Assembly: GCA_029210325.1 (NCBI GenBank)
Contig: JARGPU010000002.1
Coordinates: 224,559-288,558, forward strand
From: Alcanivoracaceae bacterium
GTDB taxonomy: Bacteria > Pseudomonadota > Gammaproteobacteria > Pseudomonadales > Alcanivoracaceae
Length of the DNA stretch: 64,000 nt
Direction: 5' to 3'
Shown: positions 46,635-61,513 of the stretch, piece after piece
Layout: each line of letters starts with the position of its first letter
Position numbering within the stretch: position 1 is the stretch's first letter
Program-made: the position numbers and the translations under genes
The notes under the pieces: generated by a model
The model's database searches: none
What the model saw: only the letters and a program-made list of their open reading frames with translations
What the model was told of the DNA's origin: nothing

Positions 46635-49600
46635 CTACTGCAGCTGTAGTGAATACTCCAAACGGAAGCCACCGTTGGGTGGCATTACGCCGTCAAATAG
46701 CACCCGGAAGTGGGTCACGTTTGCATCATATCCCGGCGGTGCGCCGCCACCTTCAGATACCGGGGTATATAACCAGGACAGGCCGCCATCCTCCGAGTAC
46801 TCAATCACATCGACGTTCAAGTTAGAGGAAATATAGGGCGCTGGCTCGTCAATAAACTGAATGCTGCCCACAAGAAAATTGGTAAATTGGGGTAGCTGGT
46901 CGGTGACCACCACACCTACCGCATCGCCAGTGCCCAGCACGTGAGTGTTGCTGACCAGCACCTGGTAATCAATGTCTTCGCCCGGTGAAGCAGATCCAGA
47001 GCTGAACAGCGAGGCAGATGCAGTGCTGGCCAGCTTGGACACCGCTAACAGTGGCGGGTCGGTCAATTCAATGCTGGCCGCATTGTAATGGGTCACTGTG
47101 CCCTCAGTGCCTTCGTTTGCTCGTACTCTCAGTGTAAACGGCCCGTCTTGCCAGTCAGCTGGTAACGGCACTTCATACTCAAATACCTTTGTATTGCCGC
47201 TCTGGCTTAGCACTGAAGTCTGCGCATGGGGGCCGCTTACCGGTATACCTCCGCTGTCCAGAACATCGACAGTGCTGTCGTTATTAATATCAGCAAAGCC
47301 GAACGGATCGGTTACCGTGCTGCGTACATATACGGTGGCCGACTCCACCATGCGAGTGATCAGACTACCGGCGGGACTGGCATCATCATAGATATCGACA
47401 CTGTCGACGTTGATAACAGTGGATGCATCCACCTCTACTCGGGATGGCAGGTTGTCTGGTGAAGTACATAAAGTACCGCCACCATTGGAAGTGAAGTCCA
47501 GCGTGCGAAGATTATGGCCGCTTGCCATATCCACTTGTAAACGCAGTCCCGCGCCGGAAGGTATGGTTGTTGGGCCGGTGTGATTGACAGTAAAAATAAG
47601 CCACTGCCAACCTGTTCCTGTGAGGTTTTGAGTTGCCGGAGTGGCGCCGATAATTGCATTAGTGTCGGATCGACGTACCGTCACTCCCACGGTGCGCGCC
47701 TGATCTGTGCGGGTACCGGATTTCCTGACACAGAGATGCACGGCCATATCGCCACTAATTACCAGATCATCGGAGAGTGCCGGGCTAAGGTCCAGGTTCA
47801 TCAGGTTGTTGCGATTGATCGGCGGCGTGGCATTGATATCGGTGGTCGGCACGATGCGTTGCAAGGTGCCGGTGGTGGCCGTATCCGGATAGGCATACAG
47901 CCGCTTGTTGCCACTGACTGAGGCACCGTAAATCGTATCGGTCAAGGTGCTGCTGTTGTTGCCGCTGTCGCCATCCACGTTGCCATTGCCTGTTGCCAGG
48001 GTGACAGTGGCAGTATTGTCAACGCTCTGACTGCCGCTACCCACCGCGCCAACATCAACATCAATGAACAAGTCCGGCAGACTGGCGCCGTTGGCCAGCG
48101 GGCCTGCATGGCTGCAGCTGATCGTTTGTGCCGGTGATTCGCTGCAGCTCCAGCCGGTGCCAGTAAAGCCTGTGTAGCTGAAGCGACTGTCCAGCACGTC
48201 GACTACTTCAATACTATTCAGCGTGGCATCAGGGCCGTTATTGCTAACCTGAATGCGGAACTGGGCTGGCTGGCTGGCTAATAGCAGGCCGCTGCTGCGC
48301 GTCTTGCTAATGGCCAGGTCGGAGCGGACGGCACAGTCGGAGCCGGGGCTGACGCCGTCAATATCATCGGGGTTGGTGTCCTCTACGCCGCTGCCAACGT
48401 CGCCGCCGGCCGGGGTGGCGCCGAAATAATTGCCCGGAGTAATGGTGTAGCCACTCGCCCCCTGAGTGGTATTGATGATGGCGCTGAAGCTATCGTTAAT
48501 AAACACCACGCCGCCACCGCCGCCACCGCCGGGGCCGTGCGCCACGCCACCGGGGTCCGCGTTGCCGCCGTTGCCGCCCTCGGCGTTGATGGTCAGGGTG
48601 CCGGTTTGGCTGTTAGCCAGGACCAGCGCCGAGCCGCCCGCGCCGCCGCCGCCGCCGCCGTCATTGACAGGGTTGGGCGTTGTGCCGTCGCTGCCGTTAA
48701 CGTTAATAACGCCGTTGTCGGCCAGATCATTGGCTCGGATTAATACGATACCACCACCGACACCACCGTGGGGTGGGGGGCTGTTGCCATTATTGCCCGT
48801 GGCTGCGCCGCCACCGCCGCCCATGACCAAACGGTTGGGCAGGGCAGGAAACGCAGTGCCGCCATAGCCGCCCACCGGCAGGTTGCTGTTCCAGGAGTTA
48901 CCGCCTCGCGCCCCAGCGCCGCCATTACTGCCGCCACCGCCGCCGGAGTTTTCATCGTTATTGCTGGGCCGGCCATCAGTGCCACCGCCCCCTGCATTGC
49001 CTGGTGCCCCTCTGGCATAGGATCCGTTTGGATAACCTTCTACGCCAGTGTCAATGCGCGTGCCGCTGCCGGGGTACACATAGCGAGGCGTACCGGCAAT
49101 ACCTTCGCCTTTGGAGCCATGCGCACCAGTGGCTGTGTTGCTTGATGTATTACGGAAATCGGTATTGCTAGCGCCGCCTCGGCCAGAGTGTAGAAAACCG
49201 CCGCCGCCGCGGAAACCGGTGGCATTCATGTTGATGCTAAAGCCATTAAAGTCCAGTGTATTTGCCACATCTAGTGGCAGCACACCGCCGGTTTCGCCAT
49301 TCCATGCTGGCGCAGAGATGTTGCCGGTCAAGGTCAGGTTGTCATACTGCGGTACCCGGATTACCTGATAACGACTTTGCCCGATAGTGCCGCTGGCGTT
49401 GGCCCGTACGTAACCATTTATTAGCGGGCTGTTAAGAGTAATCGTACCGCCGCCGACGGAGGCAACACCGGCATATTCGTAGCGTCCGGCCGTGAAGTTG
49501 CTGTCGTTCAGCCAGCCAGATGCGTCGCCACCAGCAACCCCATCACCGTAGCTGTCAGTGTTCGCCGAGTTAATCCCGGCGCCTTGCATCTGAATGATCA

Positions 49601-49826
49601 AGACCATGTCACCGGCGGCAAGTCCGACCGTGGTCGTCAGGGAAATGCTGGTGGAGCCGGCGCCTACGCTGCCGGTGGGCTGATAAAAACGTAGTGGCCC
49701 CGGAGTGCCAGCCTCCTGTGCATCACCTTCGTCCCCTGGGCCGGCTTCACATTGCAAAGCAGCCGTAGCCTGCGAGGAAAAAAGCAGGGCTATTGTGAGA
49801 AGCAATGTTTTGCGTAGAAGGTTCAC
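46635..49826 (-). CDS. large secreted Gly-rich/DUF11 repeat protein
   Basis: Signal peptide MNLLRKTLLLTIALLFSSQATAAL; Gly-rich N-terminal half; DUF11-like DLAISKTRSSGLLLASQPAQFRIQVSNNGPDAT. Confidence 0.85.
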   Translation of the reverse strand: MNLLRKTLLLTIALLFSSQATAALQCEAGPGDEGDAQEAGTPGPLRFYQPTGSVGAGSTSISLTTTVGLAAGDMVLIIQMQGAGINSANTDSYGDGVAGGDASGWLNDSNFTAGRYEYAGVASVGGGTITLNSPLINGYVRANASGTIGQSRYQVIRVPQYDNLTLTGNISAPAWNGETGGVLPLDVANTLDFNGFSINMNATGFRGGGGFLHSGRGGASNTDFRNTSSNTATGAHGSKGEGIAGTPRYVYPGSGTRIDTGVEGYPNGSYARGAPGNAGGGGTDGRPSNNDENSGGGGGSNGGAGARGGNSWNSNLPVGGYGGTAFPALPNRLVMGGGGGAATGNNGNSPPPHGGVGGGIVLIRANDLADNGVINVNGSDGTTPNPVNDGGGGGGAGGSALVLANSQTGTLTINAEGGNGGNADPGGVAHGPGGGGGGGVVFINDSFSAIINTTQGASGYTITPGNYFGATPAGGDVGSGVEDTNPDDIDGVSPGSDCAVRSDLAISKTRSSGLLLASQPAQFRIQVSNNGPDATLNSIEVVDVLDSRFSYTGFTGTGWSCSESPAQTISCSHAGPLANGASLPDLFIDVDVGAVGSGSQSVDNTATVTLATGNGNVDGDSGNNSSTLTDTIYGASVSGNKRLYAYPDTATTGTLQRIVPTTDINATPPINRNNLMNLDLSPALSDDLVISGDMAVHLCVRKSGTRTDQARTVGVTVRRSDTNAIIGATPATQNLTGTGWQWLIFTVNHTGPTTIPSGAGLRLQVDMASGHNLRTLDFTSNGGGTLCTSPDNLPSRVEVDASTVINVDSVDIYDDASPAGSLITRMVESATVYVRSTVTDPFGFADINNDSTVDVLDSGGIPVSGPHAQTSVLSQSGNTKVFEYEVPLPADWQDGPFTLRVRANEGTEGTVTHYNAASIELTDPPLLAVSKLASTASASLFSSGSASPGEDIDYQVLVSNTHVLGTGDAVGVVVTDQLPQFTNFLVGSIQFIDEPAPYISSNLNVDVIEYSEDGGLSWLYTPVSEGGGAPPGYDANVTHFRVLFDGVMPPNGGFRLEYSLQLQ

Positions 49827-49928: not shown

Positions 49929-52900
49929 TTACTCTGTCTCCGTCACACTATTCTTGAAGCGTTTGGCGCTGCTTTGATCAAACTTGATGCGGAAGTCCAG
50001 CACGATGCCTTGAACACGGCCTTGCGCACCGCTGAAGTCGTCGTCATAGAATCCACGGAAGTTGTAGCCAAGGCTGATCCATACATCACGAATCGGGCTG
50101 TAGCCAGCCATCAGGCCAAAGGAGTTCATGCGCACATTGCTGTTGTAGCTGGCCAATGTGCTGCCGCGGATGCCAACGTCCCAGCGGGGGGTAATATCAT
50201 AGCGGTACTCGCCACCGATCAAGTCGGTGTAACCCGTGAAGCGCTGGCTATCGATAGTGTCGCCCACATATCGGGCACCGTACTGAAGGGATACCTGATG
50301 ACGCTCCTGAGCAACAAAGTTCAGGTGGGTGTTGTTGATCAGGCGATGGCCATAGCGTGAGCCAAAGCCGTCACGCTGCTCGTCGTACACCACGCGGCTG
50401 CGATTCAGCCAGAACCAGCTCTCGGAAAGTGGACGACGGACATAGCTGAAGTCTAGCTCAGAGGAGCGCAGGATATCGCCAGTGCGGAACTTCTGGTCAA
50501 AGTGTAATGCGCGACCGGCAACCGTGTTGACTTCATCAAGACGGTGCTGGAAACCGGACAGCAGGTTCCACTTGTCATCACTGACCGCATGGCGATACTC
50601 GACCCGGTTGGTCCACTGCCAACTGGCGTCCTGATAGCCAAGGCCGCCGGATATGGCGGTGTAGTCGTTGCCATCGGTGCCGCTGGCAGGGGCGCGATCA
50701 GGATCAAAAGAGTCCACCGGGTTACCATCGACTAGTGTTTGGGCGCGGTCAAAGCCCATATCCGCAGTCCAGTGCTGGGAAAGCTCAATAGTCTGGAACA
50801 GCCCCGCATGGGCCATCATGCGAGGACCATACTCATCCATGCTACGGCTAACCGATGTGCTTGCCGTCGCGCCGCGCCATGGTGTTGCGCGGGCGCCTAC
50901 GCGACTATCCTGAGTGCGCTGTTCATGGCTCCAGGTAAACTCCTGATTGGCGAACAGGGAGACTCGGTCAGTCAGGCGGTAATCACTGCCCAGCATCAGG
51001 CGGGAGGGATAGTCAGATTCATCTGAACCACTGTTGACGCTGGTTTCCCCCGTTGCGGACAGGGTCAGGCGCTTATCCAACAGGTCTTTTCTACCGCCGG
51101 CAATAAGTTGCTGGCTTTCAAAAACACCGCCATTGGTCACGCTTTCCACATGGCGTGCACCGGCGAATGCCTGCCAGTCCGGCTGCTGATATTCCACCCG
51201 GCCTTCGACAAGATCACGTCGGTTGCCCGTGCCCGGAACCTGCTGGCGGCTGGCATCAGTGCTTACAGCGACATCTTCACTAAGGCGGTAGCGGATGCCC
51301 GCTTGAATGTTGCGCGAGTCCTCATCACTTGGTGACTGCTGGGTAAGCCCGAAGCCATCATCGGTTTGGTCAACGCGCACACGGGTATCGACTCGTTCAG
51401 AGGTGTACTGATGCTCAAGCAGCCACGCTTGATCATTGCTGGTGCCGGGCTGTAGGTCTTGCCGCGTGCCTGCCAGTTCCGCTTTGATGGTGTGTTGGTC
51501 TGTGGGCTTCCAGAGCACATCAGCGCCGATAAGCGACCCCGGGGCTGCCAGAGTGTCGTCATTAACGGCAGTTATGCCGACAGTCAGACTTTCATCTTCA
51601 TTGAATATAGTGGCGCGGCCGCCGGCCACGGTTTTTTCTGCGCCGACTTCGACTTCGTAAGTCACCACGATGCTAAGCGGGTTGAACGATGCATCCTGAA
51701 CGGGAATAGGCTGGCGGAAGAACATGGTGCCGTCAGCGCTGTCCAGACTGTAGTCAATAAAGCGGGTCATGGGAGTGCTGCTGATCACTTCATTGGTGAA
51801 GCGGTCGCGGACTTCGACGGTGACTGTTTCGCTACCCGGCACAATCGGAGCGCGGCTCAGCCGGTACAGGCCCGAAGTGCCGTCCGGCTCAATATCATCG
51901 CGGATAAAGCCTTGAGAGCTGTCCGCAACAAAGCCCAGTGCGCTGACATTACGGCCACGCCATTCAGCTTTGGCACCGGTTAATACTCTTTGATAGCGTC
52001 CCAGTTCGGTGACGGTCAGGCCGGTGTCGTAGTCACCGAAGAGAGCATAAAAATCACGCTTTTCCATTCTCACATAAAGTTTTTTACTGGATGGAGCATC
52101 GTGGGTACGCTGTGCGTCATCGCCGTAAAGCACGTACCAGCGTTGGGGATCGATGGCCTGGCTTAAGGGGCGGTCAGCGGGTACACGACGAGTGTCCAGC
52201 GCGGCGGTAAGCAGCCATTCTCCGGCAACCGTGCCGCGAGCAAAAAAGGCCATTTCACCATCGACATAGGCATGCTTATCCGGCGAACCCAGATTTTGCA
52301 TATTGCCGCTCAGGGTGTTGTAGCCCACGGTTCCCTCGGCAAAGCCCACCAGAATCCATTCACGTAAATCCGGTGATACAGCAACAGTGAGCTCATCAGA
52401 AACCACTCGGCCATCAGTCAGGCGCAGCCGGTAGGTGCCTGCGGTGCTAACCGGCGCAAAGCGAGCAATGCCATTCTGGTCCACCACCACCACGTCGCCA
52501 CGGTCTTCCAACGGGCTGGTGGTTTGGCTGTAATTGAGAGGTCGCAGGCTGCCACTGACAATGCGCAGTTCAGTTTGCGCCTGTAGTGGTTGATCAAAGG
52601 CGTCGAACAAGTTGAGCTTCAGTTGAACCGGGGTTAAACCGTCTGCCACATTCTCGATGCTGTCGCCGCTGCGGATGCTTTTTAGTTCGCCACTGCGACG
52701 TAGAGTTACCTTCTCGCGGAAGCGTACGACGCCAAACCCGCCCTTGCCTTGCAGCTCAAAGTTATGTTCGCCGACACTGTCAATCTCTACACCAACCCAG
52801 GTGTAAACCACGGTTTTGGTTTTTTCGTCAGCGATTCGTGAGCCGATGCGGGCATCTGAAACTTCGACGCCATCAAGCAGCAGCTTGGGTGTCAGTCGAT

Positions 52901-55352
52901 CATCAAGACGGGCAGTGACACTGACGACGGGGTGAATAACCATCATCCCGTCAGTCAGGTTGAGAAAGCCTTTCTTGGCTTCAGTATCAGCGGAATCGTT
53001 GCGTTCGCTGGCTCGGTCGCGGTTCAGGCCGCTGTCGGCCACAACGGTGGCCAAGGTGGCATTGGACACCTGTTGCTGGGTAAAGAAGCGAACGGTGACA
53101 CGGCGATTAAGCGCGCGGCCATCCGCTGTGCCATTATCTGCAACGGGCTCATCCGGGCCTTTGCCGACAATGGTGATTTGCTCCAACGGAATGAGCAGTA
53201 GCTCGGACAGATATCCTGCTACTGCACGTGCTCTTGCTTCTGAAAGCGCATAGTTATCATTGATCACACGACCAGCACGGGGAACGATGCGCTGGCTATC
53301 TGTGTGACCATAAACTTCCAAGCGTAGACCTGGTTTGCCGCGCAGTGTATCCGCCGCATTGCTTATATCTAAACGGTCACGCTCTGATAAGCCTGCGGAC
53401 ATGCTGGCGAAGCGGGGGCGCAGAACCAGCTCGTTGTCCTTCATCTGTGCGCCGGTGACTCTGATACTGTTTTGTGACGATACTGAAAAACGTTTGTTGT
53501 CCGGCGTGGTGCCAAAGGTGTTAAAGAGAATGCTTTGTTCCACGGTGTCACGGGTGTTCGGATCTACGGCAAGATCCATTTCCAGAGTGTGGCGCCAGAA
53601 ATAACCTTCGACGGGAAACTGGAACTCATAAAAGTTGTCGCGCTTGATAGGGTCCGAGATGGGCTTGCCATCGAAGCGGACGCTGCCGGGCACCGGAGTC
53701 AAGGTATGCGGAAGAAACAGGTGCGTGGTGACATTGGTGAAAAGTGTTTCACCATTGCCAATTGGCAGGGTGATACGTGCCACACCATCTTCCAGGCGAG
53801 TGGTGAGTTGCTGCTGTAACTGAGCATCCAGTGCCGGACGTACGTTGATGTACCAGTTCTCCCGCCACAGTGTGCCGCCCTGAACATTAACGAAACGGGA
53901 ACTGGGGTTGCCAGCCTGCCGGGTGTTGTCATGGCATTGGCTCAGCGTATGCCGCGGTCCCAATGTAATGGTGTCCAGCTGCAGGACATGGGTGCCCGGG
54001 GTGACGCCTTCGATATGCCAGCGGCCATGCTTGTCGGTGATGACGCTGGTGCCATCCTCCATATAAATGCGTACGCCTTCGAGGCCAGGAGCGTCCTGCT
54101 CACCACAGGCCCCTGCAATAACACGGCCCATCAGGAAGGCGCGATCGTTGAAGAATGGCCGCTCCACCAAAACCTCTGCCTTGGCCATGTTTGATCGCAT
54201 GATTCCAGCAATCGCCTGAGCCAGATTGGCGGCACGTCCGGCGCGGGCGGCCACTGTGACCTCAGTAACATAGCGAATAGTTCGGCTGGCTCCTGGAGCG
54301 ATATTGCCGACATCAATAGTGAGCTGGCTGCCGCTTGGATCAATCACCGGGTCTGCAACTGCAACGCCATCAACGCGCAACGAACCCGACTGATAACGAA
54401 AGCCTGCCGGCAGGGAATCGATAACCTGTGTGCCCAGCGCCGGAGCGATGGAGATGTTTTCTACATTGACATCGTAGGCAAGGAAGTCACCAGTCATCAC
54501 CGCGCCGCGCTGGCTGGTCTTGGTTACGAACAGATCAGTGTCTGGCAAAGGCGTAGCGCTGGTGGTGCTGCGCCGTTCTGCCTGAATGCTGCCCAGTACC
54601 AGTGGGTCGACAAACCAGGGCGCGCCAGCAGTCAGACTGTCTGCAACATCTCCGTTGTTATCGTAGCGAATCTCCACGGTACTGTCCGGTGGGATAACGA
54701 TAGGGCTGCCGGGGATATTGGGTTGTAGGTAGCCCACATAAACATTGCTGTTGGTGGCTGTTTCTACTAGCGCGATGGTGTAGCTGTCGCCGCTGCTGAT
54801 ATCAATAGTTACAGCAATAAAGCGCCGACCATCAGGGCGAGTTGCAATGCCGGTCGGTGGCAATATCGGGGTGTTGGCAACAATAAAAATTGGCTCCCGT
54901 CCCTCGTAAAAATCGCTGGGAGCAAGAGGAATAGAGCTGTTTAAGGGCAGGGGGGTGCCTGCGTCATCGATTGGCGCCGGAAGCGTGCCAAGTACTGCGG
55001 GTGTGCCAGACAAGCTATCCGGGGAGGCAAAGTTGCCTTGCCATACCTGGTAAGAGTCAGGGGAGGTCGAGTCGTATCGATAAAGACCAATGCTCTCATA
55101 ACGCAGCACTTCTACATTTGCTGTGGCTGGTACCACAGAGGCTGACCAACTCAACTCTGCTGGTGGCTGAGTGATTACCAGCGCTGCGTTGGAAAAGCCG
55201 CTAAGCAACAGCAGTAAAAGAGCAGCACAGGGCATGCCCTGGCGCTGCCAGCCTTTCAGGCGTGGCAGGGCCAGAGCGAGCCATACAGCAACGAAAAACC
55301 CGCTGGCGTATGCCAGCGGGTTTTTCTCACTGAGGATAAAGCTCCGTTTCAT
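49929..55352 (-). CDS. giant DUF11/OmpA-like/outer-membrane beta-barrel-like surface protein; true start may be ATG at 55235
   Basis: 1807 aa; DUF11 DLFVTKTSQRGAVMTGDFLAYDVNVENIS; SdrD/CarboxypepD-like GVRIYMEDGTSVITDKHGRWHIEGV; OmpA LEVYGHTDSQRIV...RALNRRVTVRFF; long amphipathic C-terminal strands. Confidence 0.88.
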   Translation of the reverse strand: MKRSFILSEKNPLAYASGFFVAVWLALALPRLKGWQRQGMPCAALLLLLLSGFSNAALVITQPPAELSWSASVVPATANVEVLRYESIGLYRYDSTSPDSYQVWQGNFASPDSLSGTPAVLGTLPAPIDDAGTPLPLNSSIPLAPSDFYEGREPIFIVANTPILPPTGIATRPDGRRFIAVTIDISSGDSYTIALVETATNSNVYVGYLQPNIPGSPIVIPPDSTVEIRYDNNGDVADSLTAGAPWFVDPLVLGSIQAERRSTTSATPLPDTDLFVTKTSQRGAVMTGDFLAYDVNVENISIAPALGTQVIDSLPAGFRYQSGSLRVDGVAVADPVIDPSGSQLTIDVGNIAPGASRTIRYVTEVTVAARAGRAANLAQAIAGIMRSNMAKAEVLVERPFFNDRAFLMGRVIAGACGEQDAPGLEGVRIYMEDGTSVITDKHGRWHIEGVTPGTHVLQLDTITLGPRHTLSQCHDNTRQAGNPSSRFVNVQGGTLWRENWYINVRPALDAQLQQQLTTRLEDGVARITLPIGNGETLFTNVTTHLFLPHTLTPVPGSVRFDGKPISDPIKRDNFYEFQFPVEGYFWRHTLEMDLAVDPNTRDTVEQSILFNTFGTTPDNKRFSVSSQNSIRVTGAQMKDNELVLRPRFASMSAGLSERDRLDISNAADTLRGKPGLRLEVYGHTDSQRIVPRAGRVINDNYALSEARARAVAGYLSELLLIPLEQITIVGKGPDEPVADNGTADGRALNRRVTVRFFTQQQVSNATLATVVADSGLNRDRASERNDSADTEAKKGFLNLTDGMMVIHPVVSVTARLDDRLTPKLLLDGVEVSDARIGSRIADEKTKTVVYTWVGVEIDSVGEHNFELQGKGGFGVVRFREKVTLRRSGELKSIRSGDSIENVADGLTPVQLKLNLFDAFDQPLQAQTELRIVSGSLRPLNYSQTTSPLEDRGDVVVVDQNGIARFAPVSTAGTYRLRLTDGRVVSDELTVAVSPDLREWILVGFAEGTVGYNTLSGNMQNLGSPDKHAYVDGEMAFFARGTVAGEWLLTAALDTRRVPADRPLSQAIDPQRWYVLYGDDAQRTHDAPSSKKLYVRMEKRDFYALFGDYDTGLTVTELGRYQRVLTGAKAEWRGRNVSALGFVADSSQGFIRDDIEPDGTSGLYRLSRAPIVPGSETVTVEVRDRFTNEVISSTPMTRFIDYSLDSADGTMFFRQPIPVQDASFNPLSIVVTYEVEVGAEKTVAGGRATIFNEDESLTVGITAVNDDTLAAPGSLIGADVLWKPTDQHTIKAELAGTRQDLQPGTSNDQAWLLEHQYTSERVDTRVRVDQTDDGFGLTQQSPSDEDSRNIQAGIRYRLSEDVAVSTDASRQQVPGTGNRRDLVEGRVEYQQPDWQAFAGARHVESVTNGGVFESQQLIAGGRKDLLDKRLTLSATGETSVNSGSDESDYPSRLMLGSDYRLTDRVSLFANQEFTWSHEQRTQDSRVGARATPWRGATASTSVSRSMDEYGPRMMAHAGLFQTIELSQHWTADMGFDRAQTLVDGNPVDSFDPDRAPASGTDGNDYTAISGGLGYQDASWQWTNRVEYRHAVSDDKWNLLSGFQHRLDEVNTVAGRALHFDQKFRTGDILRSSELDFSYVRRPLSESWFWLNRSRVVYDEQRDGFGSRYGHRLINNTHLNFVAQERHQVSLQYGARYVGDTIDSQRFTGYTDLIGGEYRYDITPRWDVGIRGSTLASYNSNVRMNSFGLMAGYSPIRDVWISLGYNFRGFYDDDFSGAQGRVQGIVLDFRIKFDQSSAKRFKNSVTETE
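55293..55326 (-). terminator. intrinsic terminator/attenuator inside the called 5' end of the 1807-aa ORF
   Basis: GAAAAACCCGCTGGC-GTAT-GCCAGCGGGTTTTTC, 15-bp perfect stem with T5. Confidence 0.85.
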
Positions 55353-55362
55353 CCGGGTTCCG

Positions 55363-56490
55363 TTACTGCACGGTGACCTGGAAAATCACCACGGCGGTTT
55401 CACCGTCAATGATTTCACCAGCAGCGCCGGTTGGGCTGTTGACCTGCAAACCGCCAACAAGTGCGGAGTTCGGGCCAACGTCTGCCACCGGGTTGCCGTT
55501 CAGCGTGGTGCTGTTGGGAACATATGCGGTGAACTCCGGGATGCTGTCGGAGATGGTCGCGCCGGTGATGGTTTCAGTTGGAATGGTGCCAGCAGTCAGA
55601 CGATACTCAAGCACATCGCCGGTGCGTGCAGTAACGCCGCTAGTGGCGAAGGCGCCGCCATCAGTTACGTTGCGTACTTCCTTGGTCAGTGTTGCGTCAC
55701 CTGACAATACGGTTACGGTGCCGCCACCGATATTGTCAAAGGTGATCACGTCACCCGGGCCACCAGGACCAGGGGCCGCTGTTGTACCGTCAATCACGAT
55801 TTCGTGCTCACCTGGAGTACCCGGGGTAAGCGGACTGCCAGCGTCGAGCTCGACGGTGAAGGTCTGGACTTCACCCACTTGAGTACCGACCGGTACATTG
55901 CCCGCAATGATCGCCGGCGCTGATGCTTGAGGCGTCAGAGCCACAGCGGTGGGGGTCTCAGGGGTGGTGGTGTTGCCGGCTGTCGATGCCGGGGTACCCG
56001 GGGTGACAGAGCCGACAGTGTACAGATAGTCCGTACCACCAATATTGATCCGCACGGTATCACCCGGAGTCAAGTTGTCTTCAGAGCCAGCAGCAATGAA
56101 GATTGTGCCTGCCTGAGACGGCCGTGAGGTAATAGACCCTGCCAGAGTAACCTGAGGCGGGGTGATGGTCAGCGACGACGGCGCACCAACGTCGGTGTCA
56201 TTCGTGCTTACCGTGAGGTCGTAGATATCACTACCATTGCTGTTGCCGGTAATGGTGTAGTTAACCGTTATCGAGTCACCAGCATTGGCGACCACAGTTT
56301 CCGACGTGATGGTCGGTGCGGCACCAATGGTGCGCACTTCAACATCTACGGAGGCGGTAACCTGTTGCCCGGTGCCAAACGTCATGGTGGCGGCGTTATG
56401 AATGGTAGCACCGCCACCGGTGGTGGCGAGAGCGTGGCCTGTTGTGGACAGTGCAGCCAATGCCACCAGTCCTGTAAGTAATTTTTTCAT
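55363..56490 (-). CDS. secreted DUF11-like repeat protein
   Basis: MKKLLTGLVALAALSTTGHALA signal; C-terminal TLTKEVRNVTDGGAFATSGVTARTGDVLEYRLT...AVVIFQVTVQ. Confidence 0.82.
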   Translation of the reverse strand: MKKLLTGLVALAALSTTGHALATTGGGATIHNAATMTFGTGQQVTASVDVEVRTIGAAPTITSETVVANAGDSITVNYTITGNSNGSDIYDLTVSTNDTDVGAPSSLTITPPQVTLAGSITSRPSQAGTIFIAAGSEDNLTPGDTVRINIGGTDYLYTVGSVTPGTPASTAGNTTTPETPTAVALTPQASAPAIIAGNVPVGTQVGEVQTFTVELDAGSPLTPGTPGEHEIVIDGTTAAPGPGGPGDVITFDNIGGGTVTVLSGDATLTKEVRNVTDGGAFATSGVTARTGDVLEYRLTAGTIPTETITGATISDSIPEFTAYVPNSTTLNGNPVADVGPNSALVGGLQVNSPTGAAGEIIDGETAVVIFQVTVQ

Positions 56491-56553: not shown

Positions 56554-57780
56554 TCAGTCAATGGTGACCTGGAAGATCACATGGCTCACTTCAGTGGCGA
56601 GAAGGGTGCCGCCATCGCCATTACCTGCACCAGCAGTGGTATCGTCGCCACCCGCGCCTGCGTAGACGTAGACGGTTCCGTTGCCGGTAGCATCCAGTTC
56701 GGCAGCATCGCCATCGTCTGCGGTCTCATCCTGAGCAGCGAAGGTGCCTGTGCCCGGATCAAGCTCAATGGAAGAGGCAACAAAGGAGGTGAACTGCGGA
56801 ATCGGATCGGACACCACGATGTTGTTGGCGGTGCCCGCACCAGCGGCACTGTTATCAATAACAATCAGATACTGCATGGTGTCGCCCGGATTTCCGGTGA
56901 CGCCAGATGAGTAGTAATCAACGCCATCCACAGTAATGTCGGCTGCTACCGGGTTGAACGTGGTGAGCGGGGTAGCGTTGCGTACATACTTGGTAACGGT
57001 GAGTACCGGGCGGCGCACGGTGATCACAGTTGCAGTGGCCTGGTCGGTCGATATGGCTCCGTTAAAGTCAGATGTAGCTGTCGACACGATAGAGTGCGTA
57101 CCGGAGGTGCCAGTAGTGATGGTATCCGTGGTGATTGCCACAGTTACTGTGTCACGTTGACCGATGGTTGTGCCGTAGATGAAGCCATTGGCGGTGCCCG
57201 CGGTCAGGGTAATGGTGACCGTGTTAGTGGCTGCGCCAGTGCTTTCATCAACACTCAGAATGGTGGCGACTTCGGCTGTTCCAGTTGGGTCAATGACAAT
57301 CGTATTGCCATCTGTCAAGCCGTTGACGACGCCGTCATCTGTGCCATCAAACGGTACTGTGATGACTGTGTCAGTGGCGACAATAGCGCTGGCCACAGTT
57401 GTTGCACCAAGCGGAATGCTCGGGTCATCGCCGACCGCATCTGCATCCATATTGGTACGGGTGTCAGCGGAGGTGAAGTTGTAGGTGTCAGGACCGTTGG
57501 CTGTGCTGGTAATGGTGTATACCAGATTGACCGCGGTGTCTTCGGTGGCTGGATCTACGTCTGCCGGTGATGACACCAGCGGTGCAGAGGCAACCAGATT
57601 TACGTCAATAGCAACACTGGCTGTTTCTGGCGTCTGCGCGTTATCCGCAGCATCGCTGTAGCTCACTGTTACAGTGTTGGTAATAGTGGTGTTTGCTGCC
57701 GTGGCGAATGCCAGGCCGGGGATTAGTGCCGCACTAGCAAGCAATGCGGTCCCCCCCATTAGTTTTTGTAAATGTTTCAT
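56554..57780 (-). CDS. secreted DUF11-like repeat protein, paralogue of the neighbouring gene
   Basis: MKHLQKLMGGTALLASAALIPGLAFA signal; LVYTITSTANGPDTYNFTSA; LTVTKYVRNAT...HVIFQVTID. Confidence 0.82.
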   Translation of the reverse strand: MKHLQKLMGGTALLASAALIPGLAFATAANTTITNTVTVSYSDAADNAQTPETASVAIDVNLVASAPLVSSPADVDPATEDTAVNLVYTITSTANGPDTYNFTSADTRTNMDADAVGDDPSIPLGATTVASAIVATDTVITVPFDGTDDGVVNGLTDGNTIVIDPTGTAEVATILSVDESTGAATNTVTITLTAGTANGFIYGTTIGQRDTVTVAITTDTITTGTSGTHSIVSTATSDFNGAISTDQATATVITVRRPVLTVTKYVRNATPLTTFNPVAADITVDGVDYYSSGVTGNPGDTMQYLIVIDNSAAGAGTANNIVVSDPIPQFTSFVASSIELDPGTGTFAAQDETADDGDAAELDATGNGTVYVYAGAGGDDTTAGAGNGDGGTLLATEVSHVIFQVTID

Positions 57781-57907: not shown

Positions 57908-58408
57908 TTACTGAACGATCACAGAAAATCCACTACTTCCCTCAGCGCCTACACCGACTTCTTCAATGATCCAGCGGATAGAGTTGTATTGCTCGGGGGC
58001 CGCTTGGCGATCTTCCGTCTGGCCATCGTTGCCGGTAACCTGATAAGTCAAATTGCTGGCTTTCTTAAATGTTTTGCCGCCGTCAATGGAGAAAAGAATT
58101 TCGCTGTTTTCTCCCCAGGCACTATTTGCCTGATAGGCGGTTGCTTGCGGCACGGGATTATCAAGCTGCACGTTGCGGGCAGCTTCGTCGCCGGTATTGC
58201 TGTAGCTGATGGTGTAGAACAGCACGTCACCTGGCACGGTTTCGGTCGCCGCAACTCGACGGGTGACTTGCTGGCCGTTTTCATCTACCTCCACAACCTC
58301 TTTCTCCGCCGAGATTTGCAGTGCAATCTGCGGCGCGGCCATCGACATCATGCTTGCCGTGCCCAAGACCAGAGTAAGCAAGGTGTTGCGAATCATATTC
58401 ATCATCAT
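57908..58408 (-). CDS. small secreted DUF11-like protein
   Basis: Signal MIRNTLLTLVLGTASMMSMAAP; VPGDVLFYTISYSNTGDEAARNVQLDNPVP; ends GFSVIVQ. Confidence 0.82.
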   Translation of the reverse strand: MMMNMIRNTLLTLVLGTASMMSMAAPQIALQISAEKEVVEVDENGQQVTRRVAATETVPGDVLFYTISYSNTGDEAARNVQLDNPVPQATAYQANSAWGENSEILFSIDGGKTFKKASNLTYQVTGNDGQTEDRQAAPEQYNSIRWIIEEVGVGAEGSSGFSVIVQ

Positions 58409-58515
58409 TGTGTCTCTCCTTTGATGTTTATTGGTCCAGAGCTGCTCCGGACTTCCCGGCTAGTGGTTCCTAACCCTCAGCATGAGCAGCGGGTAGGAGT
58501 GCCATCAGCTGGTTT

Positions 58516-58531
58516 TGTGACACAGATCACT
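58516..58531. promoter_or_regulatory. CRP/Vfr-like site
   Basis: TGTGACACAGATCACT versus CRP consensus TGTGAN6TCACA. Confidence 0.65.
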
Positions 58532-58563
58532 GATATTTTAGTGGTATCAGCATGCATGTGTCC

Positions 58564-58590
58564 TGAACGCGCTATGAACGGGATATGAAC
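58564..58590. promoter_or_regulatory. three TGAAC direct repeats with exact 11-bp period; candidate OmpR-family regulator site
   Basis: TGAACGCGCTA-TGAACGGGATA-TGAAC, repeats starting at 58564, 58575 and 58586. Confidence 0.65.
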
Positions 58591-58616
58591 ATTTCTGGTT
58601 CTCAAGTACTGGTCAA

Positions 58617-59336
58617 TCATGTATCTATACCTATAAAGCGGTAACCGGCACCTGCCACCGTCTCAATAAGAGGGCCAGGCACGCCGGCGGCTTCCAGCTT
58701 CTTACGCAAGCGGTAGATCAGGACAGTGACCGTCTCCTCGCTGGTGGTTTCCATTGGCGAGGACATGGCACGGGCTAGCTGGCGCCGGTTGCATAGGTTC
58801 CCGTTGGCCTGCATCAGCTCTTTCAGCAGATCACGCTCGCTGCGGGTCAGGCTGACCATGGCCCCTTGGGGGCCAGTAATCCGGTATTGGCTAGGCTGCA
58901 AGTGCCACTCGCCGAAGCTCAGCGATGCTGTTTTCTGGGCCGCTCCGGCGGCCTTGCGCGAGTCCTGCCTGCGCAGGAAGTTGCGGATCCGGAACTCCAG
59001 CTCACGGGCGTTAAAAGGTTTGACAATATAGTCGTCCGCTCCAGCTTCCAGTGCCTCCAGCCGGCTATGCTCATCGCAGCGACCTGATACCACAAACACG
59101 GCTGTATCACCTGCGGCGGCCAGTTCTTTTAGAAGTGCCAGTCCGTCACCGTCGGGCAAATTGAGATCCAGTAGCAACAAGTCGAACTTCTCGGAGGTAG
59201 ACAGCACCCGAAAACTGGCAAGGTCGGGTGCCTCCAGTACTTGATAGTGCATTAATGACAGGAAGTCTCTGAGTACGGCACGCAGGGCGGCATCATCCTC
59301 CAGCACTAGAACTCGGTATGTTGGCGTCGCATTCAT
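58617..59336 (-). CDS. OmpR/PhoB-family response regulator
   Basis: REC LVLEDDAALRAVLRDFL, DLLLLDLNLPDGDGL; winged-helix VTVLIYRLRKKLEAAGVPGPLIETVAGAGYRFI. Confidence 0.93.
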   Translation of the reverse strand: MNATPTYRVLVLEDDAALRAVLRDFLSLMHYQVLEAPDLASFRVLSTSEKFDLLLLDLNLPDGDGLALLKELAAAGDTAVFVVSGRCDEHSRLEALEAGADDYIVKPFNARELEFRIRNFLRRQDSRKAAGAAQKTASLSFGEWHLQPSQYRITGPQGAMVSLTRSERDLLKELMQANGNLCNRRQLARAMSSPMETTSEETVTVLIYRLRKKLEAAGVPGPLIETVAGAGYRFIGIDT

Positions 59337-61513
59337 AAGCCGGCCTCCGCGCTTTGTGTCGGTGGTGGAAATAGCAGGTTAAAAGTAGTCCCGGTGCCGA
59401 GCGTGCTGCTGATCGTCAAGATCGCATTGTGCATACGCACAATGCGATCAACGATATACAAGCCCAGTCCCATTCCCGGTACGTTAGTGGCGGTGTCCGC
59501 TCGGAAGTATTTGTCCAGTACCTGACGGAGTTCTTCCTTATTCATGCCACATCCCTGATCGCTGATCTGTATGCTTATTGAATGGTCTGGGTGTTGCTCC
59601 CCAATTACATAAATAGATGAATTTTCTGCTGAGTACTTTACGGCGTTGTCAATAATGTTATTTAGCATGGTGAGAAGCAGGTCGTAGTCGCCTTGTATGT
59701 GAAGGTGCTCATCGCATACAGCTGAGAAACTCCGCTTTCCAGAGGAGATCATTTCCCCGTAGCTGATACTGTTGTGCAGTAGTTCGCTGACTTGAATAAA
59801 TCTTGCATTTTTGCGCCACTCTGCGCTGTCAAGTTTGTCTTCGCGCAGTGCTTGATTTATGACTGCCGCCATTCTTTCGCTAGCATGCTGTATTCGTTCG
59901 CAGTTCGTTGTGGCGTGTACTTCCGGTGTGCGTGGATCGCTGGCGATAAGGTCGCTGGCCATCTGAATAACGGATAGCGGGGTGCGGAACTCGTGAGCCA
60001 CCATGCGCAGAAACTGTCTTTGCTCCAGTGCTGATTTTTTTTCCGCGTTCAGGGCAAGCGAAAGGCGAGAGTGTGTTTTCTCCAGGTCAATGGATTTTTG
60101 CTTGCTTATATCTAGTTGCTGCTCAAGATTCTGGTTGGCTTGATCCAGTTCGAGCGTTCGCTGACCGACCAGGTTTTCCAGGAGTTTTTCTGACTGGCGT
60201 ATGCTTGCTATTGCTGTCTCTCCGGCGTTCCGCATGGTTTTTTCTAGTTGTACATATTTGGTCGCCAGCGTAATAAACATTATCCCTATATGAATCAGAA
60301 TAATGACTATAAAGTTATTTTCAGAAAGTATGTTCGGCCCGGATAGTCCGAATACCCATACCAAACGAACAAGCAAGCCCGCTGCAATAACGCCAAAGGC
60401 GCTGGCGTACATGTAAGCAATGACTCCAATTTCCTTGCGCAGGAAAAGAGTGGCAGCAGGGATGGAGATAAATATGGCTGCGAAAATCATCCAGTAAAAT
60501 GGGATGCTTATAGCGTAGAGCCCAAACATCATTGGTATCAGGCCGACGATTGCGGCCAGATATGAGGCGCGAATCAGTGATTTTTCTATCTTTGGGTAAT
60601 AAGTCTTCAGGTTGGTGATTTTGCTAAACAGAATGATCAGGCTTACCAGGCCTACGGCTTGAAAGATCACCTGGAGCCATTCCAGGTGCAGCGGTGTTTT
60701 CGGTAAAACAATAAAATGAATTATGCCTTCGATTTGAGCAATGAGAAATGTATATGACATTGCGTAGAGTAGGAAATACAGATATACAGACTGTCTTAGA
60801 AAGGCAAGAAACAGCAGGCTTAAAGCACACACTAAAATGCCAGTACTGAGCAAGGCGCCGTACAGGAACATGACGCTGGCAGATTGGCCTGCAAATGCAT
60901 CGCTCTCCCAAAGTGTCAGATTTGCAGCGATGCTGCTGGTGCTTTGCAGCTTGACGTAGAACGTCGCCTGTCCTTCATTTAGATGAGGGAGCTGGTAAAG
61001 GGGGTGGCGCCAGGGGATGACTCGTTGATGCCAGGGCTCCCGGTCGCCCTGAATGCCAAGATCTTGAATCTGACCGTTCTGTACGCTGAATAATCTGACG
61101 TGGTCGAGAAATGAAGGGGAGATGCCAAGCAGTCTGGGGACGTGCTCGATTTCCTGAGATGTCACGGCGAAGCGAATCCATATGGTGTCGCTTGTGTAGC
61201 CAAAGCTTGGCAGTCCTGCCGCATCAGTGAACATGCCCTGACGATCACTAACGATAATGTCATCAATGCTCATGTTCCCGCTGCCGTCACGATACCAGGC
61301 CAGACTCCCAGACAATGACTGGTATGGCTGACGGCCGTCGATTGTCAGCGTGGTTGCAGTTGACCAAGGCGAACCCAGCAGCATCCAGACAAACATCAGC
61401 GTGCCTGCAAGACGACTTGCGGCCAGACGTGTGTGATCCAGATGTTGGGCCATATCAGCTTCCGGGCATGTGTTGCAATTTATATTCCAAGAACCATGCC
61501 AATCTGATATCAA
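59333..61513 (-). CDS. 7TMR-DISM-type sensor histidine kinase; start may be ATG at 61453
   Basis: DISM-like sensor, 7 TM helices, VAHEFRTPLSVIQMASDLI H-box, ISDQGCGMNKEEL, GMGLGLYIVDRIV; 4-nt overlap with the regulator. Confidence 0.92.
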   Translation of the reverse strand: MISDWHGSWNINCNTCPEADMAQHLDHTRLAASRLAGTLMFVWMLLGSPWSTATTLTIDGRQPYQSLSGSLAWYRDGSGNMSIDDIIVSDRQGMFTDAAGLPSFGYTSDTIWIRFAVTSQEIEHVPRLLGISPSFLDHVRLFSVQNGQIQDLGIQGDREPWHQRVIPWRHPLYQLPHLNEGQATFYVKLQSTSSIAANLTLWESDAFAGQSASVMFLYGALLSTGILVCALSLLFLAFLRQSVYLYFLLYAMSYTFLIAQIEGIIHFIVLPKTPLHLEWLQVIFQAVGLVSLIILFSKITNLKTYYPKIEKSLIRASYLAAIVGLIPMMFGLYAISIPFYWMIFAAIFISIPAATLFLRKEIGVIAYMYASAFGVIAAGLLVRLVWVFGLSGPNILSENNFIVIILIHIGIMFITLATKYVQLEKTMRNAGETAIASIRQSEKLLENLVGQRTLELDQANQNLEQQLDISKQKSIDLEKTHSRLSLALNAEKKSALEQRQFLRMVAHEFRTPLSVIQMASDLIASDPRTPEVHATTNCERIQHASERMAAVINQALREDKLDSAEWRKNARFIQVSELLHNSISYGEMISSGKRSFSAVCDEHLHIQGDYDLLLTMLNNIIDNAVKYSAENSSIYVIGEQHPDHSISIQISDQGCGMNKEELRQVLDKYFRADTATNVPGMGLGLYIVDRIVRMHNAILTISSTLGTGTTFNLLFPPPTQSAEAGL

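Follow-up and report, generated by a model that had tools for sequence, protein, structure and literature searches.

The window, by which we mean the whole 64,000-nucleotide stretch of DNA that was analyzed, holds a two-component system followed on the same strand by a run of genes for DUF11-type surface proteins, with a short repeat array between the two (Table 1). The response regulator scores 83.9 bits against Response_reg (cut-off 30.2) and 65 bits against Trans_reg_C (cut-off 26.2), which bears out the winged-helix OmpR/PhoB assignment made in the preliminary description, and its phospho-acceptor pocket is conserved, with D57, S84, and K106 unchanged across eight relatives. The start codon of the kinase gene is probably the ATG at 61453. 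From their spacing, direction, and conserved order, we infer that the five genes downstream of the array form one operon, the fifth included. The 1,807-residue product of the fourth gene has a weak match, below the cut-off, to the model for the outer-membrane exchange protein TraB, and an N-terminal stretch of the 1,063-residue product of the fifth resembles the gliding-motility protein AgmC, also below the cut-off. Our search of the literature on DUF11 operons in this group found nothing direct.

Direct reading of positions 58200-59400 places three copies of TGAAC on the plus strand, starting at 58564, 58575, and 58586, and a weak fourth unit, TGCAT, in phase with them at 58553, exactly as the 11-bp series had been described beforehand. 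The array follows the 3' end of the regulator gene and precedes the 5' end of the operon, so a divergent promoter region was rejected for it. As every gene here, on either side of the array, is encoded on the minus strand, the site reads GTTCATATCCCGTTCATAGCGCGTTCAGGACACATGCAT along the direction of transcription; its functional form is GTTCAT-N5-GTTCAT-N5-GTTCAG, and the weak fourth unit is ATGCAT.

Table 1. Features of the regulator-array-operon locus (positions in the window)
Feature	Position	Strand	Basis or remark
7TMR-DISM histidine kinase	59333..61513	-	Pfam; frame overlaps regulator gene by 4 bases
OmpR/PhoB-family response regulator, predicted array binder	58617..59336	-	Pfam Response_reg + Trans_reg_C
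Half-site 1, GTTCAT (distal)	58585..58590	-	Sequence; invariant in 6/6 orthologous loci
Half-site 2, GTTCAT	58574..58579	-	Sequence; invariant in 6/6 orthologous loci
Half-site 3, GTTCAG, overlaps predicted -35	58563..58568	-	TTCAG invariant, 6 loci
-35-like hexamer AGGACA, poor	58559..58564	-	Consensus scan
Weak in-phase fourth half-site ATGCAT	58552..58557	-	Relatives: GTTCGG or ATCCAT
-10-like hexamer TAAAAT	58535..58540	-	Predicted start site near 58528
CRP-like site TGTGACACAGATCACT	58516..58531	.	9/10 to TGTGA-N6-TCACA; overlaps predicted start site
First operon gene, small DUF11 protein, predicted target	57908..58408	-	Pfam DUF11
Second operon gene, DUF11-type repeat protein	56554..57780	-	NCBIfam TIGR01451; synteny
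Third operon gene, DUF11-type repeat protein	55363..56490	-	NCBIfam TIGR01451; synteny
Fourth operon gene, 1807-aa protein, DUF11 + OmpA domains	49929..55352	-	Pfam; synteny
Fifth gene, 1063 aa, AgmC-N-like (below cut-off) + DUF11-type repeat	46635..49826	-	NCBIfam; synteny

The array stands out from its surroundings. In the entire 64-kb window, TGAAC alone among pentamers occurs three times in series with a period of 10, 11, or 12 bp, and dinucleotide shuffles of the 208-bp intergenic region yielded a tripled pentamer at period 11 in only 2 of 20,000 cases and at periods 10-12 in 7 of 20,000. The pair TGAAC-N6-TGAAC occurs eight times in the 3.03-Mb genome and is by itself uninformative, not special. 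The genome scan for the three-repeat pattern that the preliminary description had called for found one exact match, the array itself, with the runner-up carrying two mismatches.

The first operon protein was searched against 95 related genomes and the regulator against 46 genomes of the family. The regulator adjoins the operon in six loci, two in the genus of the window and four in a second genus, which represent approximately three independent lineages (the genus of the window, G022 with G030, and G012 with G025). GTTCAT-N5-GTTCAT-N5-[GA]TTCAG lies between regulator and operon in every one of them, the third half-site beginning with G in four loci and with A in the other two, so the conservation in orthologous loci on which the preliminary description had staked its reading is present throughout. 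With no mismatches allowed, the motif occurs at six places in the 46 family genomes, all between an orthologue of the regulator and the first operon gene. The six arrays score 14-15/15, each better than all 500 shuffles of its own intergenic region, and an alignment of 66 columns shows no change in the half-sites or in part of the -10, whereas the majority of the remaining positions differ. The fourth unit retains three or four of five matches to GTTCA, with unchanged phase, in all six loci, which is suggestive of a real half-site but only that.

The genomic settings of these loci differ. In the genus of the window the order is mdh, kinase, regulator, array, operon, and G003, which has no regulator, has mdh followed by the operon; in the second genus the order is gyrB, regulator, array, operon in G022 and G025, and a divergent kinase-like gene precedes the regulator in G012. 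Regulator, array, and operon are thus found together in two chromosomal contexts. The array accompanies the regulator and the operon whatever their chromosomal site and whether or not the kinase is beside them, and no other observation points so strongly to the regulator as the protein that binds the array. The earlier proposal that the adjacent two-component system controls the operon is therefore supported for the regulator, which is tied to the array in six of six loci, but not for the kinase, which is not conserved beside the regulator in the second genus. Between the two genera the regulator proteins are 48-51% identical, and the recognition helix, ETVTVL[IV]YR[LM]RKKL, is nearly invariant among the orthologues. 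An array was also looked for upstream of the kinase gene and none was found, leaving autoregulation through the GTTCA motif unsupported.

Where the operon occurs without the regulator, in four loci of the family (L011-L014) and one at order level (L015), the array is absent, the best scores being 8-11/15 and within the range of shuffled sequence. A degenerate 11-bp series in L011 (ATTCA/ATTCG/GTTTA, 11/15) was rejected for this reason (27/200 shuffles). Conversely, G005 and G016 of the second genus keep a gyrB-linked regulator with the same recognition helix and have neither operon nor array. The acidic pair of the regulator is kept in relatives with the operon and partly lost in the two without it: in the orthologues beside gyrB in genomes lacking the operon (L125 and L126), the acidic pocket has gone from EDD to EAC, position 14 no longer being acidic. 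This change fits either decay or an altered role, and the regulator may have other sites. A two-repeat match common to G005 and G016 (GTTCATATCCCGTTCAG, L165 and L180) was not counted as a target because it overlaps a stop codon between seemingly convergent genes. Siblings of the regulator in other families (L188 and L189, from the order-level search) have other neighbors and no array nearby, and a contig search with the regulator protein returned distant paralogues only (28-39% identity) and no useful loci.

A promoter scan predicts AGGACA-18-TAAAAT, with the third repeat overlapping the poor -35, a layout resembling that of activator-dependent promoters. All six loci have -10-like hexamers (TAAAAT, CACAAT, or AACAAT) at a fixed offset from the array, and this column gives 26 of 36 matches to TATAAT, compared with 20 at the next best offset. 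An inverted repeat, CTGATA-N9-TATCAG (58530-58550), spans the predicted -10 in the genus of the window only. The CRP-like site over the predicted start suggests a second input to the promoter. In the four family genomes that lack the regulator, one or two CRP-like sites precede the operon (9-10/10 matches), the second lying ~116-118 bp further upstream in three of these loci; one such site is kept in the genus of the window, and the second genus has none above 7/10. The simplest reading of this pattern is that control of the operon was handed over from CRP to the regulator.

Taken as a whole, the array is almost certainly a functional regulatory site, and it is very likely that the neighboring regulator binds it. 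The full assignment of regulator (58617-59336), array, and operon (from 58408) to one another can be made with considerable confidence, and, given binding, the regulator probably activates rather than represses. As to binding, its dependence on phosphorylation, activation, and the role of the kinase, we infer the following course. The phosphorylated regulator would bind GTTCAT-N5-GTTCAT-N5-GTTCAG and the weak fourth unit on a single helical face and would probably occupy ~44 bp as two dimers arranged head to tail, the fourth unit completing the pair. The promoter-proximal subunits would then lie against the poor -35 and most likely recruit RNA polymerase, in the manner of a class II activator, to the TAAAAT promoter, and the recruited polymerase would switch on the surface operon beginning at 58408.

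It is possible, though unlikely, that the regulator binds but represses, blocking RNA polymerase at the -35 while an activator such as CRP or a downstream promoter drives the operon. The array does abut the promoter, the CRP-like site is conserved in relatives, and repression is common for ArcA, whose sites have repeats of this kind. However, the -35 is poor, and its distance from the third repeat is the same in every lineage, which is the arrangement of an activator-dependent promoter, and the second genus lacks a CRP-like site that could serve as the activator. Use of the array by a different DNA-binding protein, such as another member of the OmpR family, is considerably less probable still. 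Direct repeats of 11 bp are recognized by a number of proteins in this family, among them ArcA and PhoB (PMC3798270), and a search of the genome found ten Trans_reg_C proteins, yet the presence of the array follows that of the neighboring regulator gene beside the operon. Moreover, the recognition-helix pattern TVxVLI..LR.KL, which is also that of E. coli TorR, occurs in only one of the ten, the neighboring regulator itself, and in none of the remaining nine, although by a plain count of identical residues the PhoB-like protein L220 equals the neighboring regulator in closeness to TorR. That the repeats arose by chance, or that the DNA is conserved for another reason, such as an RNA element or the terminator of the regulator gene, is barely credible: the motif is short and was noticed after the fact, and two of the locus pairs are close relatives, but the shuffles, the strict co-occurrence over two genera, and the confinement of conservation mainly to the half-sites and the -10 argue against chance, an Rfam search of the region gave no match, and the terminator-like match falls within the regulator gene, outside the array.

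The neighboring regulator may also have second targets. A second three-repeat TGAAC array with 11-bp spacing is present in exactly the four second-genus genomes that have the regulator and the operon (L153-L156). It lies ~180-220 bp upstream of an SCPU-domain pilin gene, which is followed by another gene of an apparent chaperone-usher operon, and little besides the cores and their spacing is kept between its more diverged copies. This suggests a pilus operon under shared control, although the opposite orientation of this array and its distance of ~200 bp fit poorly with a simple class II activator. In the genome of the window itself, the best other match (L113:1501-1527, C13:758597-758623; GTTAAT-N5-GTTCAG-N5-GTTCA, two mismatches) is flanked by a hydrolase gene and a CHASE-like/GGDEF gene and retains 26 of 27 positions in the sister genome (L161), compared with 91 of 111 for the intergenic region, making it a possible second target. 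Both are leads rather than established targets.

The assignment matters because it would give a precise regulator, operator, and target to a conserved, uncharacterized surface operon encoding three DUF11-type proteins and the 1,807-residue OmpA-bearing protein. The family also appears to offer a small natural series of promoter rewiring in which CRP-like sites are replaced by response-regulator repeats. The widest reading of these observations, which we put forward tentatively and hold to be somewhat short of an even chance, is that the regulator represents a lineage not described before, which has an 11-bp GTTCAT operator of its own and governs the DUF11/OmpA surface operon as well as, in one of the genera, an SCPU-pilin operon, and that within one family control of the same operon has passed from CRP (cAMP) sites to this regulator, by way of CRP sites only, the array with one CRP site, and the array only.

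Among known systems, TorR of E. coli is similar in several respects. Its typical tor box is CTGTTCATAT, with the core GTTCAT (PMC9239176). The regulator described here likewise belongs to the OmpR/PhoB family, the half-site core GTTCAT is shared with the tor boxes of torCAD in Escherichia coli and Salmonella, and the recognition helices are alike (TVDVLIRRLRHKL here against TVTVLIYRLRKKL in TorR). However, the two proteins are only 33% identical, and the regulator scores 149.5 bits against the NCBIfam TorR model NF008034, where the cut-off is 275 and E. coli TorR reaches 428.7. Boxes in the tor region of E. coli are spaced at 10 bp and irregularly, whereas the array here keeps strictly to 11 bp; the neighbors are a 7TMR-DISM kinase and DUF11 proteins, not torCAD and torS; and the predicted target is a surface operon rather than a TMAO reductase.

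ArcA and PhoB provide parallels for the layout. Direct repeats are used by several OmpR-family regulators, ArcA and PhoB among them, with multiple repeats mentioned for PhoB, and E. coli ArcA has three- and four-repeat sites with 11-bp center-to-center spacing, occupied by two dimers that protect ~44 bp (PMC3798270). The array shares with ArcA the 11-bp direct-repeat layout of three or four units, and would be a compact case of that multi-repeat architecture, but the regulator scores 153.7 bits against the NCBIfam ArcA model NF008378 (cut-off 334), and the full-match site is local and unique in the genome, whereas ArcA governs a global regulon. The ArcA core is GTTAA, in contrast to GTTCA here. 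PhoB belongs to the same fold family as the regulator, but its half-site differs and the score against the NCBIfam PhoB model TIGR02154 is 128.9 bits (cut-off 296.2). In the pho box, whose half-site is CTGTCAT, 11-bp direct repeats stand in for the -35 of the activated promoter. The array has the features of a tandem operator of the OmpR/PhoB type, namely direct repeats that recur once per turn of the helix, lie in a promoter region, and are kept between species, and we can say with good confidence that it is a local operator of this type with an assigned regulator and target. As the regulator falls far below the curated cut-offs for TorR, ArcA, and PhoB, it would work like them while being none of them.
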